From contig NZ_JAETXJ010000005.1 of NCBI RefSeq assembly GCF_022508225.1, forward strand, positions 124,001 through 188,000: 64,000 nt of DNA, in the 5' to 3' direction. How positions within the stretch are numbered: position 1 is the first letter of the stretch; each line of letters begins with the position of its first letter. Shown piece by piece: positions 36,785 through 41,618 of the stretch. The notes below the pieces were generated by a model. It was not told where the DNA came from and did no database searches. It saw nothing but the letters and a program-made list of their open reading frames with translations. The stretch is from Desulfovibrio sp. UIB00 (lineage in GTDB: Bacteria > Desulfobacterota > Desulfovibrionia > Desulfovibrionales > Desulfovibrionaceae). Both the position numbers and the translations under genes were made by a program.

Positions 36785-36920
36785 TACGCAAACCCGACTT
36801 TTACGCCCTGAATGCGTCAGCGCCGGGATTTTGATGCTCACGTACTTGAGTACGCTGCGCTCAAAATCCCGGCGCTTCCTTTTCAGGCCGCAAAACGCGT
36901 ATTTTGCAAATTCGCCCAAC
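36785..36920. repeat. Long imperfect palindrome with perfect 16-bp core arms
   Basis: The core arms AGCGCCGGGATTTTGA (36819-36834) and its complement (36861-36876) are perfect. The 26-base loop holds a nested CGTAC-TTGA-GTACG hairpin. Outside the core, the flanks (GCAAACCCGACTTTTACG on the left, and the complement of the right flank, GCAAAATACGCGTTTTGCG) are also similar, extending the symmetry to about 135 bp. This looks like a REP- or MITE-type mobile intergenic repeat. Confidence 0.6.
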
Positions 36921-37234: not shown

Positions 37235-37402
37235 AACGCGGCGCGGAGGGAGATCACCTGAGCGAGTGCAGCGAGCGAGGGAAGCTCCCGCAGCTATGGC
37301 CGCGTTGCCCTCGCCGGTTTGTGGAAGCTGAAAACTCAAGGGGGTGCTTCGGGGGGGATGCAAGGGGGGCCGAGAAGGGGGCGTAGCCCCATAACCGGCC
37401 CC
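37235..37402. other. GC-rich structured non-coding block
   Basis: AACGCGGC (37235-37242) pairs with GCCGCGTT (37299-37306), with GGGAG/CTCCC inside. A second nested hairpin has GGGGCCG (37366-37372) and CGGCCCC (37396-37402) around GGGGGC-GTA-GCCCC. No protein reading frame explains it. It could be an RNA gene, a remnant of a mobile element, or a family repeat. Confidence 0.4.
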
Positions 37403-37540
37403 GCCTTGCTGCGCGCCGCACAGGCGTCCCAAACCCCGCCGGAAGGCGGAAAATTGCGCCCGAAGGGCAGAAAAAAATAGTATCGTACAGATCGGCCGAA
37501 AACGCGCCGCATCTACGCCCAAAATATATCCCAAAACGTA

Positions 37541-37585
37541 AAAAGCCCCCGGCTCAGAAACTATATGGTTTCCGCCGGGGGCTTG
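37541..37585 (-). terminator. Terminator of the mlaD-mlaC-mlaA unit
   Basis: On the minus strand AAGCCCCCGGC ... GCCGGGGGCTT with an inner GGAAACC / GGTTTC pairing, then a T run; 24 bp after the mlaA stop. Confidence 0.85.
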
Positions 37586-37608
37586 CATTCTGGCTTACAG
37601 GGCAAGGT

Positions 37609-38454
37609 CTAGTGCAATACCTGCGCCTTGCGGAAGTTCACATAGGCCTCGCGCATGGCTATGTAGGGGTCAACAGCCACGGTGTTCAGGTCTTCATACA
37701 GGGGCAGCACATCGCCGAGGGCGTTGAACCGCAGGCCGCCGCCAATCCCAAGGCTCAATTCCGTGGGTTGCAGGTAGAACAGCGGGTCGGCAAACAGATC
37801 GCCAGCACGGCCCACAGTGTCGCGCGCGGAGCTTGGGCCAATGATGGGCCAGACAATATAGAAACCATGCCCAAGGCCCCAGCGTCCAAGAGTCTGACCA
37901 AAGTCTTCGCCTGTGGGATCAACGGGCACAATGGTTTTGTGTCCTTTTGCCACGTCGGCAAAGCCCGCGCTGGAAGTGGTGTTGATGACAAAACGCCCAA
38001 ATTCCACCCCCGCTTCAAAAAAGCGGAACTGCAGAATGTTGTTCACAAAACGCACAGGGAACAGAAGGTTGGAAAAGAAATTTTTCAACCCGGAGCGCAA
38101 CTGGTGCGGCGTAACTGCTTCCCATGCTGTGTAGGCGGGCTTGGCAACATAGAGAAAGAAAATGTCATTGAAATGGAACCAGAACCTGTTCCACGGTTCA
38201 ATGGGGTCGGAAATACTCTGGATCGGCTCATTGTCGTAGTCGTCCAGGGTACTGTCTGCATTCATTGTCCCGTAGGGCGTTACTGTGATGGCCCCAGGCT
38301 GCAGCTGGGGCGCTTTGCCGTACACAGTGGAGGGCGCAGGCGCCTGACTGGGGGCCGCACTGGCTGGCGCATGCCACAAGCAAAGCAGTGCGGCCAGCAG
38401 AAAGCCGGGCACATAGAGATGCCCTAGCAGTGTTGATGAGTAGTTACTGGCCAT
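37609..38454 (-). CDS. mlaA: MlaA (VacJ) family outer-membrane lipid asymmetry protein
   Basis: I take the ATG at 38454, giving 281 residues and an 11-bp overlap with mlaC; an upstream start at 38496 would add a run of arginines. An N-terminal signal peptide (about 12-34, ending PASAAP) looks like a signal peptidase I substrate rather than a lipobox, unlike the E. coli lipoprotein. The MlaA body is clear: DPIEPWNRFWFHFND, then NNILQFRFFEAGVEFGRF and GPSSARDTVGR. The protein pulls mislocalised phospholipid from the outer leaflet and passes it to MlaC. Confidence 0.93.
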   Translation of the reverse strand: MASNYSSTLLGHLYVPGFLLAALLCLWHAPASAAPSQAPAPSTVYGKAPQLQPGAITVTPYGTMNADSTLDDYDNEPIQSISDPIEPWNRFWFHFNDIFFLYVAKPAYTAWEAVTPHQLRSGLKNFFSNLLFPVRFVNNILQFRFFEAGVEFGRFVINTTSSAGFADVAKGHKTIVPVDPTGEDFGQTLGRWGLGHGFYIVWPIIGPSSARDTVGRAGDLFADPLFYLQPTELSLGIGGGLRFNALGDVLPLYEDLNTVAVDPYIAMREAYVNFRKAQVLH

Positions 38455-39088
38455 TGCCCTGCCGGACCTCCTGCGCCTTGGCCTTGACCTTGGCAATAAG
38501 CTGGTCAGGGCTGCCGGTGTTCAGAATGTCCTGAAACTGGGTGCGATAGTTTTTGACCAGGCTGATATTTTCAATCAGCACGTCATAAACAAGCCATGAT
38601 CCGTTTTTGGGGAGCATGCGGTAAGCAACGGGGACTTTTTTCGAGTCCTTCATGGTGATGATTGTGCGCACTTCGGTGCGGTCGCCCTTGGGGGACGAAA
38701 CCTCGCCAGTGTACACCACCTGTTCGCCATTGTATCCGTCAATCTTGCTCAGGTAGGTATTCAGGAGCAGTTCTGCAAAGGCATCGCTGAACTGCTGTTG
38801 CTGCGCCGGGCTGAATGTGCTCCAGCGCGGCCCCACCGTGCGCGAAGAAAATTCTTTGAAATCAAATATGTGCAGGACTTCATCTTCAATCTGCTGGCGC
38901 AGCGGGCCGCGCGTGGCAGGATTGACGTAGTCGGGGTTCTTGATGGAGCCGAGGATGCGGCTGATGGAAGTTTCCAGCGCCAGTTGTGCAGGAGAACTTG
39001 CACTGGCCGCGCCGGGCAACAGGGCAACTGTCAGCAGCGCAAGCAGAAAGCCTGCGGCTATATGGCGTGTGGTCGCATGAATGGTCAT
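38444..39088 (-). CDS. mlaC: MlaC family periplasmic phospholipid-binding protein
   Basis: 214 residues. A signal peptide occupies about 1-30 (AAGFLLALLTVALLPGAASA). The rest follows MlaC: FDFKEFSSRTVGPRWSTFSP, LLLNTYLSKIDGYNGEQV, and the later YRMLPKNGSWLVYDVLIENISLV, cut here to its first part YRMLPKNGSWLVYD. It shuttles phospholipids between MlaA in the outer membrane and the MlaFED complex in the inner membrane. It starts 2 bp after the mlaD stop. Confidence 0.93.
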   Translation of the reverse strand: MTIHATTRHIAAGFLLALLTVALLPGAASASSPAQLALETSISRILGSIKNPDYVNPATRGPLRQQIEDEVLHIFDFKEFSSRTVGPRWSTFSPAQQQQFSDAFAELLLNTYLSKIDGYNGEQVVYTGEVSSPKGDRTEVRTIITMKDSKKVPVAYRMLPKNGSWLVYDVLIENISLVKNYRTQFQDILNTGSPDQLIAKVKAKAQEVRQGNGQ

Positions 39089-39090
39089 TG

Positions 39091-39543
39091 TTATTTGACT
39101 CCTCCGAAGGCGTACTTGCCGATGAGGGAACCGAGGTCAACGGCGGATTCCGTTTCAGTAATTGTGTCGCCAGCCGCAAGGACATGCTCCGAACCTCCGC
39201 GCGAAAGGCTGACATATTTGTCGCCAATGAGGCCACTGGTGCGGATGGAGGCGATGCTGTCTTCCGAAAGTTTCAGGTCTTTGTCGAGCCGCAGGCGCAC
39301 CACTGCCTGATTGCGCACCGGGTCCGGGTCAAGACCAATGCTTACCACGCGTCCTACCGGCACCCCGGCCATTTCAATATCCGCCCCGACCCGCAGGCCG
39401 GAAACAGAATCAAAGTTGGCAGAAAGTTCAAAGCCCTGCTGGCTGAAAACTTCCATCTTGCCCAGCTTGATGGTCAGGTAGGCAACGCATACAAGGCCGA
39501 ACAGGACAAAAAGGCCCACAGCGGTTTCACGAACAGTACTCAT
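39091..39543 (-). CDS. mlaD: MlaD family MCE-domain protein
   Basis: 150 residues from ATG 39543; an upstream in-frame start at 39585 would overlap the promoter region and lacks a ribosome-binding site. One N-terminal membrane segment (about 8-26) is followed by an MCE domain (about 38-115: FDSVSGLRVGADIEMAGVPV, IRTSGLIGDKYVSL). MlaD forms a hexameric ring under the MlaE permease. Here mlaE is not next to it, and a good promoter lies just upstream. Confidence 0.92.
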   Translation of the reverse strand: MSTVRETAVGLFVLFGLVCVAYLTIKLGKMEVFSQQGFELSANFDSVSGLRVGADIEMAGVPVGRVVSIGLDPDPVRNQAVVRLRLDKDLKLSEDSIASIRTSGLIGDKYVSLSRGGSEHVLAAGDTITETESAVDLGSLIGKYAFGGVK

Positions 39544-39590
39544 AAGGTTCAGGTAGCTCCACAGATAATTCGGCAATAAGATCAAATCTC

Positions 39591-39619
39591 AGTATAAGTG
39601 CGCCATGACAAAGTTTCAA
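39591..39619 (-). promoter_or_regulatory. Promoter of mlaD-mlaC-mlaA
   Basis: On the minus strand TTGAAA (39619-39614), 17-bp spacer, TATACT (39596-39591). It lies between mlaF and mlaD, about 48 bp before the mlaD start, so the downstream three genes can be expressed without mlaF. Confidence 0.7.
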
Positions 39620-39689
39620 GCCCTACTGTTGAGTAGGTAATCGCGAATCGCCAGGTTATCGCAATTTTTATTATACAGCGGCGCAGTTT

Positions 39690-40505
39690 TTATGATGCCA
39701 GCCAGCGGTCAAGGGCCTGCCGCACCGCCGGATCTGGCGCTTCGCCCATGGCGGCCTGCGTGTCGCCGGGTTCACGCAACAAAAATTGGCGCAGATATGG
39801 GTCATCGCTTGCTTCAAGCTCGGCCAGCGAACCGGAAAAAAGCGCGCGGCCTTCGCCCAGTACCAGAACATGGTCGGCAATGGCCCTCAGGCTGGCAAGG
39901 TCGTGGCTGACCACAACCACTGACATGTCGGTATATTGCTTGCGCATGGCAAGCAGCAGTTCGTCCATACGGGCAGCGGTGATGGGGTCAAGACCGGAGG
40001 TTGGCTCATCGCACAGCAGAATGCGCGGTTCGGCCACAATGGCCCGCGCAAGGCCCGCGCGTTTGCGCATGCCGCCGGAAAGCTGGTTGGGATAAAAATC
40101 GGCAAAATCCTCAAGACCCACCATGCGCAGCACGCGCAGGCCAGCCTCGCGGACAAGCTTCTTGGGGAGATTCAGATGCTCCGTGAGGGGCAGCGTGACG
40201 TTTTGCACCAGCGACAGAGCGCCCAGCAGCGCGCCGTCCTGAAACAGCACGCCCATGTTGCGGCGCATGCGCCGAAATTCTTTTTGCGGCAGGGCAAAGA
40301 GGTCTTTGTCGCCTATGAGCACATGGCCAGCCTGCGGGCGCGAAAGGCCGATGATATGGCGCAGCAGGGTGGACTTGCCACAGCCGGAACCGCCAAGAAT
40401 TACAGAAACCTTGCCGCCCGGGAGCACCGCGTTGACATCGCGCAGAACCACATGCTCGCCGTAGCCCACGCTGAGATCCCGAAATTCAATGTCCCATGCC
40501 TGCAT
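39690..40505 (-). CDS. mlaF: MlaF family ABC transporter ATP-binding protein
   Basis: 271 residues. ATPase motifs: Walker A LGGSGCGKSTLL (about 38), Q-loop MGVLFQDGALLGALS typical of MlaF, signature NQLSGGMRKRAGLARAI, Walker B ILLCDEPTSGLDP and H-loop VSHD. MlaF powers phospholipid movement between MlaC and the inner membrane with MlaE and MlaD. A permease gene is missing on both sides. Confidence 0.93.
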   Translation of the reverse strand: MQAWDIEFRDLSVGYGEHVVLRDVNAVLPGGKVSVILGGSGCGKSTLLRHIIGLSRPQAGHVLIGDKDLFALPQKEFRRMRRNMGVLFQDGALLGALSLVQNVTLPLTEHLNLPKKLVREAGLRVLRMVGLEDFADFYPNQLSGGMRKRAGLARAIVAEPRILLCDEPTSGLDPITAARMDELLLAMRKQYTDMSVVVVSHDLASLRAIADHVLVLGEGRALFSGSLAELEASDDPYLRQFLLREPGDTQAAMGEAPDPAVRQALDRWLAS

Positions 40506-40880
40506 GAATACCGCCTGTCGCCTCTGATATGGATTATCGATTGGAGCAGATTATCATTGAAAGGTATGTCTCTGCTCCGCACGGTTTTTTGTAAAATTCC
40601 CGTTGAAAAATATTTTGTCAGGCGACCCCGTATCGCTCGCAAGCAAGTATTTCAACGTGAGAATGCCTTGATGTCGGAGCGCCGCCAGCAGGTGGATGGC
40701 CTGCGGGCCTTCTGGCGCTTTTGCAGCATAACGCAGGGAGGCAGGAGGAACAAGTGCGGATGATGCGCCACGCTGCGGGCGCGGTTGGCGAGATTTTGCG
40801 AAGCTTGGCTGGCTGCGCGGGGGATGACCCTTCTTACAAACGGGATTCTCCCCCGCCAGACAACTCAAAGTGAAAACGCG
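40506..40880. other. Intergenic region between yebC and mlaF
   Basis: About 375 bp, too short for mlaE. It contains a hairpin after yebC (GCGGGGGA at 40817-40824 pairing with TCCCCCGC at 40849-40856, with an inner CCC/GGG pairing, no T run) and a possible mlaF promoter near the mlaF start on the minus strand (TTTCAA and GATAAT 18 bp apart). Nothing else was recognised. Confidence 0.5.
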
Positions 40881-41618
40881 TTAGTCTGTGGGCATATCGT
40901 CGGGGAAGTCCGCGTTGGCATAGACATTCTGAACGTCGTCATTGTCGTCCAGCGCGTCCATGAGGCGCAGTACCTTCATGCCCACTTCGGCGCTCACAGC
41001 CACAAGATTCTGCGGAATCATGGCCAGTTCAGCTTCCTGCATGGCAATACCGGCTGCTTCCAGCGCATCGCGCACCGAGGTGAAATCGGCCATGGCGGTG
41101 TGGATGGTCCACACGTCCTCATCGTCAATGACATCGTCTGCGCCGGCTTCAAGAGCGGCTTCCATAATTTTGTCTTCGGGGTAGGCGGCCTTGTCCACGG
41201 CAATAACGCCCTTGCGGTCAAACATCCAGCCCACGCTGCCGTTTTCACCCATGGCCCCGCCATGCTTGGTGAAAAGGTGGCGAACTTCAGCCACGGTGCG
41301 GTTTTTGTTGTCAGTGGCAACTTCCACCATGATGGCGATGCCGTTGGGCCCGTAGCCTTCGTAGAAGGTTTCTGTCAGATCGCCGCCTGCGTCTTCACCC
41401 GTACCCTTGCGGATGGCAGCCTCAATCTTGTCCTTGGGCAGGTTGACGGCCTTGGCTGCGGCAATGGCCGCGCGCAGGCGGGAGTTGCCCACAGGGTCAC
41501 CGCCGCCCTTGGCTGCGATGATGATTTCTTTGGCGGCCTTGGTGAAAATCTTGCCGCGCTTGGCGTCCTGGCGACCCTTACGGTGCTGGATATTGGCCCA
41601 TTTACTGTGACCTGACAT
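40881..41618 (-). CDS. yebC: YebC/PmpR family DNA-binding regulator or translation factor
   Basis: 245 residues with GGAGG upstream. The N-terminus [20 protein letters not shown] and the following [15 protein letters not shown] are family signatures; the acidic C-terminal domains ([14 protein letters not shown], and [11 protein letters not shown] at the end) are also as expected. YebC proteins have been described as transcription regulators and, more recently, as factors that help ribosomes at polyproline. It probably forms a unit with the downstream mlaF only by proximity. Confidence 0.95.

Follow-up and report, generated by a model that had tools for sequence, protein, structure and literature searches.

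The 64,000-nt stretch of Desulfovibrio sp. UIB00 analysed here (contig NZ_JAETXJ010000005.1, positions 124,001 to 188,000; hereafter the window) carries on its minus strand the genes mlaF, mlaD, mlaC and mlaA of the Mla lipid transporter, and the gene for the permease, mlaE, lies on another contig of the same assembly next to ruvC. Comparison of gene order indicates that a single reciprocal exchange between the mlaEFDCA and yebC-ruvC operons very probably divided the former in an ancestor shared by one clade of Desulfovibrio, and the transporter most likely works in trans. It is a known transporter in an arrangement that is explained by one rearrangement; in the literature searched, neither this rearrangement nor any division of the mla operon in Desulfovibrio was seen to be described.

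Gene order of the mla operon in Desulfovibrio

The gene order on the minus strand of the window is rlmE-yebC-mlaF-mlaD-mlaC-mlaA, followed by oppD and then an mcp gene, and no MlaE ORF was found within or beside positions 37609-40505, where the neighbours are yebC and oppD. This bears out a first reading made from the letters alone (the sequence-only reading), which had placed the four genes in this order without an adjoining permease. The order that it called usual is that of the genus (E-F-D-C-A) but not that of E. coli, where mlaB-F form one operon and mlaA sits at a separate locus, as far as the available part of PMC10665443 describes it.

The comparison set comprised 73 genomes of the genus, including the source assembly (G000). 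The gene 3' of mlaE is mlaF in 50 of them (one of these, G033, is counted from just the last 24 residues of mlaE at the edge of a contig) and ruvC in 19, with a spacing of 1-14 bp in all 19, while mlaE was not found in G004, G020, G027 and G061 (63-81% complete), so that G004 and G061 are unclassified. The mlaE-mlaF gap, measured in 53 non-split genomes including five from the outgroup, is 3-399 bp long with a median of 19 bp. By a tally of coordinates, yebC and ruvC are adjacent in 49/49 non-split genus genomes with both genes but in 0/17 split ones, and yebC directly precedes mlaF in all 17 split genomes that have both on the contig. The old and the new junctions are therefore mutually exclusive across genomes, and the replacement of two old junctions by two new ones indicates a reciprocal exchange at two cuts. 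Of 112 loci from named records the best 80 were taken, a set that overlaps the 73 genomes; in it mlaE is followed by ruvC in ten, including records of Desulfovibrio desulfuricans and Desulfovibrio sp. MES5, and by mlaF in 70. Outside the genus, mlaE and mlaC lie on one contig within 3 kb in 24 of the 25 outgroup genomes with an mlaC match; the remaining one, G113, is 43% complete, has mlaC in two pieces and was left unjudged.

On the tree of mlaE+F+D+C (75 rows, 70 of them genus genomes, with G004, G020 and G027 left out) the split genomes form one clade with a single state change (SH-aLRT 100), and the same clade is found with mlaE alone (73 rows, 85) and with mlaF+D+C+A (74 rows, 99). The trees were built quickly and carry no bootstrap values, and a program warning flagged long branches among rows of the outgroup. 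An assembly gap or misjoin is rejected, as identical junctions are present in 19 species, including the one-contig assemblies G042 and G021. The suspicion of the sequence-only reading that the locus is split is confirmed by the genus comparison and by the finding of mlaE on the other contig. As a separate observation, the mlaE match at G001:C70:13175-13819 contains one TAA and may be disrupted or mis-sequenced in the draft.

The probable exchange and its alternatives

The gene order shows that SPOR-mlaE/mlaF-mlaD-mlaC-mlaA and rlmE-yebC/ruvC became SPOR-mlaE-ruvC and rlmE-yebC-mlaF-mlaD-mlaC-mlaA, with the cuts (slashes) falling in mostly short intergenic gaps. The flanks on the 5' side are kept: as in unsplit genomes, argS and fabD stand before SPOR-mlaE in all 17 split genomes with enough sequence there, and rlmE precedes yebC in 17/17 split genomes. 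Moreover, the nearest unsplit genomes (G025, G029 and G055) match the flanks in G000, namely sodC-rlmE-yebC, ruvC-ppi-yccA and mlaA-oppD. The physical event was probably one inversion, in which two cuts would yield both new junctions if the two operons were oppositely oriented; with both operons on one contig, they are so in the unsplit genomes G006, G055 and G062 and in the split genome G042.

Several observations weigh against this account. The two operons are not opposite in unsplit G036 nor in split G021 and G058, where a single inversion does not fit; with such mixed orientations later rearrangements must be assumed, and the inversion remains a presumed event. The outer flanks are also variably kept, so that later local changes must be assumed: oppD lies 3' of mlaA in each of the 50 unsplit genus genomes fetched but in just 8/19 split ones, not being found in eight despite at least 2 kb of spare sequence (G017, G058, G023, G021, G035, G005, G015 and G060) nor in three more with less than 0.9 kb; downstream of ruvC, ppi is present in 6/16 unsplit genus stretches and 14/19 split ones. 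In addition, the tree of the non-mla genes yebC+ruvC+rlmE (36 rows) gives the split clade a support of just 84, and MlaF, MlaC and MlaA of the window fall below the curated NCBIfam cut-offs of the E. coli-type equivalogs, although MlaC and MlaA do pass those of Pfam. The flank losses leave the odds of the exchange unchanged, since both new junctions are independent of those flanks.

Another explanation would be that mlaFDCA moved as a block, by transposition or horizontal acquisition, while mlaE stayed, or the reverse, without any reciprocal exchange. The eight split genomes that have room behind mlaA and no oppD there would agree with it, as would the extra lone mlaC that the relatives G016, G030 and G050 bear elsewhere. 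A one-way move, however, predicts mlaE beside the old 3' neighbour of the block, and yebC and ruvC flanking the insert, whereas ruvC itself follows mlaE in all split genomes, oppD is still behind mlaA in eight of them, the window among them, and the trees of mlaE and of mlaF+D+C+A recover the same clade. We consider this explanation very unlikely. The agreement of these two trees on the clade is also the ground on which horizontal replacement of mlaFDCA was rejected.

The permease gene and a second MlaE-type system

The products of the window fit an Mla system. MlaD passes the curated cut-offs of both PF02470 and TIGR04430 (158 bits, cut-off 135) and is of the short type with one MCE domain, MlaC (PF05494, 167 bits) and MlaA (PF04333, 203 bits) both exceed the Pfam cut-offs, and the ATPase gene adjoining mlaD has the NCBIfam MlaF equivalog as its best match (183 bits, below its cut-off of 441). 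The window MlaF is 80% identical to that encoded 3' of mlaE in the unsplit genome G055. The N-terminus of MlaA has a signal-peptide-like LLAALLC, and a clear lipobox is not apparent there, as judged by eye.

A search of G000 (20 contigs, 3.46 Mb) for the MlaE family gave two matches, neither inside the window. One is the canonical mlaE, which is intact and encodes 271 amino acids (G000:C2:199656-200468); it follows a SPOR-domain gene and ends 6 bp short of ruvC, in the string argS-SPOR-mlaE-ruvC. Its product is an MlaE-family permease by PF02405 (259 bits) and TIGR00056 (234.7, cut-off 212.2), and scores 255.6 against the 'exception' model NF033619, below the cut-off of 315. Of the two possibilities that the sequence-only reading had offered, mlaE elsewhere or the use of another permease, the former was found and the latter is unneeded. 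The other match, on contig C4, is an MlaE-domain protein with a long N-terminal part (PF02405, 224 bits), which we take to be STAS-MlaE from the known architecture. It sits with its own ABC ATPase, an MCE protein closest to PqiB and a lipoprotein closest to PqiC (L004 3860-7779; G000:C4:61859-65778), and this predicted set is a second lipid-transport set of mixed Mla-Pqi arrangement.

Since the C4 permease has partner genes of its own, the window MlaF-MlaD need not borrow another permease. The C4 ATPase is only 42% identical to the window MlaF, against 80% for the MlaF of G055, so the missing partner of the window locus is, by sequence, most likely the mlaE on C2. That the window MlaF-MlaD uses the C4 STAS-MlaE, with the mlaE beside ruvC as a relic, seems hardly probable: the C4 protein does exist in the genome and belongs to the MlaE family, but it comes with the partners and the distant ATPase just described, the supposed relic is intact in G000 and evolves under purifying selection across the split clade (see below), and G020 and G027 (79-80% complete), which are without an mlaC match, canonical mlaE and mlaF, have kept the paralogous permease and ATPase.

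A promoter-like element before mlaD

Between the stop codon of mlaF and the ATG of mlaD lie 146 bp, which contain TTGAAA-17-TATACT (39619-39591), as the sequence-only reading had it. It is the sole sigma70-like match in a scan of positions 37400-41000, and one such match in 3.6 kb is not above chance (mean of shuffles 1.7). The idea of an own promoter before mlaD therefore does not stand as a single match exceeding chance, and it stands as a promoter predicted from conservation. For this, mlaF-mlaD gaps were scored against the 12 positions of the sigma70 consensus, leaving out gaps shorter than 28 bp or of 600 bp and more; outside the split clade 43 of 51 gaps were used, those of G014, G059, G063 and five outgroup genomes (in which mlaF and mlaD overlap by 4 bp) being dropped. 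In the split clade all 19 gaps reach at least 9 of 12 (17 at least 10), compared with 3/19 on the reverse strand (none at least 10) and a mean of 3.0 (maximum 7) after shuffling. With the sequences anchored on the 17-nt spacing, majority conservation is 98% and 91% in the hexamers and 82% in the five spacer positions next to the -35 hexamer, and falls to 46-59% over the other 12 spacer positions and the flanks. The gaps of the clade range from 99 to 471 bp, and the element lies 39-96 nt before the start codon with the hexamers always 17 nt apart. This is good evidence for a predicted promoter before mlaD.

Among the non-split gaps of the genus, 28/43 reach 9 of 12 or more, compared with 3 on the reverse strand and a mean of 2.8 (maximum 7) after shuffling, and the other 15 do not; the identical TTGAAA-17-TATACT is present in unsplit G025, G029 and G055. 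In 29 more distant loci (MlaE 58-68% identical), 14 gaps of 10-26 bp are too short and one of the 15 others reaches 9. On this pattern the predicted mlaD promoter is one that arose in the genus and predates the split. Creation of the promoter by the split is rejected, because related elements stand before mlaD in unsplit relatives; nor does it take the place of the permease gene, as the sequence-only reading implied, since mlaE in unsplit genomes lies 5' of mlaF and not between mlaF and mlaD. Furthermore, mlaF and mlaD were separated independently in G008 and G034, which are placed apart on the tree, and in both a TTGAAT-17-TATACA or TTGCAT-17-TATACT element is kept with mlaD.

It is improbable, though less so than the alternatives above, that the motif is instead a regulator site or an mRNA leader feature. 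Conservation does run five bases past the -35 hexamer (82% majority). A genome-wide search for the full motif, allowing up to 2 mismatches and aimed at a possible regulon, gave a single site, that of mlaD itself, fewer than for a reversed control pattern (3). A sigma70 promoter is favoured by hexamers exactly 17 nt apart in all split genomes, in the correct orientation and at the distance from the start codon given above, by the weak conservation of the distal spacer (58%), and by the persistence of the element with mlaD, again at 17 nt, in the two independent breaks.

Some further irregularities were seen around mlaF and mlaD. The breaks in G008 and G034 are at loci L103 and L086/L087, respectively, and in G008 a terminator-like hairpin is now 3' of mlaF. 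In G041 (L120, L121), mlaE-mlaF-mlaD and mlaC-mlaA are on separate contigs that share repeat sequence, where a further break or an assembly effect is possible, and the mlaF-mlaD gap of unsplit G063 (L130) is 1,431 bp, possibly through an insertion.

A candidate element before mlaF

The yebC-mlaF spacing in the split clade is 1-476 bp, and 16 of the 17 gaps were usable (G018, with 1 bp, was excluded). TTGTTC-17-TATGCT is recognisable in 10 of the 16, which score 9-12, a variant occurs in two, and four have none. What speaks against a promoter here is that, by consensus score, the gap is not above chance (4/16 at least 9; shuffled mean 1.6, maximum 4), and the element is therefore a candidate only. 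In non-split genomes, 11 yebC-ruvC gaps (two from outgroup genomes) could be scanned, and none showed a recognisable copy of it (best 9 of 12, in G002 and G071); for this reason the capture of an old ruvC promoter by mlaF was rejected. In G018 yebC and mlaF are 1 bp apart, and transcription presumably continues from the former into the latter.

Retention of the divided system

The ratio dN/dS is 0.03-0.12 for mlaE and 0.05-0.12 for mlaF in nine split pairs, and 0.04-0.15 and 0.04-0.24, respectively, in eight unsplit pairs; judged by these ratios, both halves of the split system are under purifying selection. Both loci are retained in 19/19 split genomes. The only genus genomes without an mlaC match, G020 and G027 (about 80% complete), are also without canonical mlaE and mlaF, a pattern that fits joint loss and that incompleteness may explain instead. 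The most probable working model is that of an ordinary Mla transporter whose subunits are encoded at two loci and assemble in trans. MlaE from the argS-SPOR-mlaE-ruvC string would join MlaF and MlaD in the inner membrane, a step suggested by homology, co-retention and purifying selection, and MlaC and MlaA would complete the route to the outer membrane. The genes mlaD-mlaC-mlaA could be transcribed from the promoter older than the split, and mlaF via read-through from yebC and/or a newer promoter. In addition, mlaC occurs singly, with no further mla gene in the fetched stretch and with 50-57% identity to the MlaC of the window, in L104 (G016), L079 (G030), L106 (G050), L124 (G064) and L140 (G061).

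Comparison with known systems

Like the Mla systems of E. coli and A. baumannii (MlaFEDB-MlaC-MlaA), G000 encodes MlaF, MlaE, a short MlaD, MlaC and MlaA. Unlike in E. coli, its mlaE is on another contig, joined to ruvC, and mlaA is 3' of mlaC; moreover, no gene for the STAS subunit MlaB was found between mlaF and mlaA, a statement on this locus only, as a genome-wide mlaB search was not made. D. piger is unsplit (L204, L207; SPOR-mlaE-mlaF-mlaD-mlaC-mlaA-oppD), with mlaE directly preceding mlaF, unlike G000. In D. alaskensis G20 the mla operon is Dde_2297-Dde_2301, and its mlaF, mlaD and mlaA homologues share a mutant fitness group with defects under phosphate limitation, starvation or SDS, according to the part of PMC5193443 available to us, in which the first gene, Dde_2297, is unnamed and mlaE is not named among the genes of the operon. 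By analogy, the phenotype of the G20 mutants would be the function expected of the split system. The C4 set of G000 is comparable to the chimeric Mla-Pqi system Mpc of Brucella, as presented in the accessible portion of PMC12436622, in having an MlaE-family permease, an ABC ATPase, an MCE protein and a lipoprotein. In G000 it is a gene set of its own, with the MCE protein and the lipoprotein closest to PqiB and PqiC, and it has no MlaC or MlaA match.

Features of the window

The features of the locus are collected in Table 1. The hairpin 3' of mlaA has a folding energy of -30.4 kcal/mol (z=-4.9, with 0/200 shuffles equally low) and a U-rich end. Between oppD and mlaA there is also a perfect 16-bp inverted repeat (AGCGCCGGGATTTTGA) with a 26-nt loop at positions 36819-36876, of which no further copy was found in the window at up to 2 mismatches.

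Table 1. Coordinates of the mla locus and adjoining features in the window
Feature	Position	Strand	Basis or remark
Terminator-like hairpin (intrinsic) directly 3' of mlaA	37543..37584	-	Folding compared with shuffles
mlaA, outer-membrane component	37609..38496	-	PF04333, E=6e-60; ORF overlaps the end of mlaC
mlaC, periplasmic carrier	38444..39088	-	PF05494, E=3e-49; 2 bp after mlaD
mlaD, MCE-domain protein, short proteobacterial type, 150 aa	39091..39543	-	PF02470 and TIGR04430
Promoter-like element TTGAAA-N17-TATACT	39591..39619	-	47 nt upstream of the mlaD ATG
mlaF, Mla transporter ATPase	39690..40505	-	PF00005 (ABC_tran); top NCBIfam match MlaF
yebC/mlaF new junction, rearrangement breakpoint region	40506..40880	-	yebC directly 5' of mlaF in 17/17 split genomes with both on the contig
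Candidate promoter-like element TTGTTC-N17-TATGCT before mlaF	40725..40753	-	Comparison of split yebC-mlaF gaps
yebC, ancestral 5' neighbour of ruvC	40881..41618	-	ORF list and gene-order comparison

Implications

An apparently incomplete transporter is thus explained as a whole one in two places, and the explanation would need one event, with the promoter first and then the break. What is striking is that a reciprocal swap was fixed in a whole clade, and that the predicted promoter preceded the breaks and was kept with mlaD at each break seen. Surveys of Mla that rely on neighbourhood, such as that in PMC10665443 as far as its available part goes, could score the split clade as lacking an MlaDE(F) cluster. 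The clade may also serve as a natural experiment on whether the subunits of one ABC transporter must be co-transcribed. As a tentative idea that we hold to be possible rather than probable, the internal mlaD promoter came first, made mlaDCA independent and the operon tolerant of breaks, and was followed by at least three of them, one between mlaE and mlaF with ruvC/yebC and two between mlaF and mlaD, in G008 and G034; mlaD would have kept the promoter each time. If this were true, the supply of permease in the split clade would be tied to the expression of argS-SPOR-ruvC, a new promoter before mlaF in part of the clade would let permease and ATPase levels be regulated separately, and these genomes would offer a natural series in which to ask whether an internal promoter comes before operon break-up and makes it possible.

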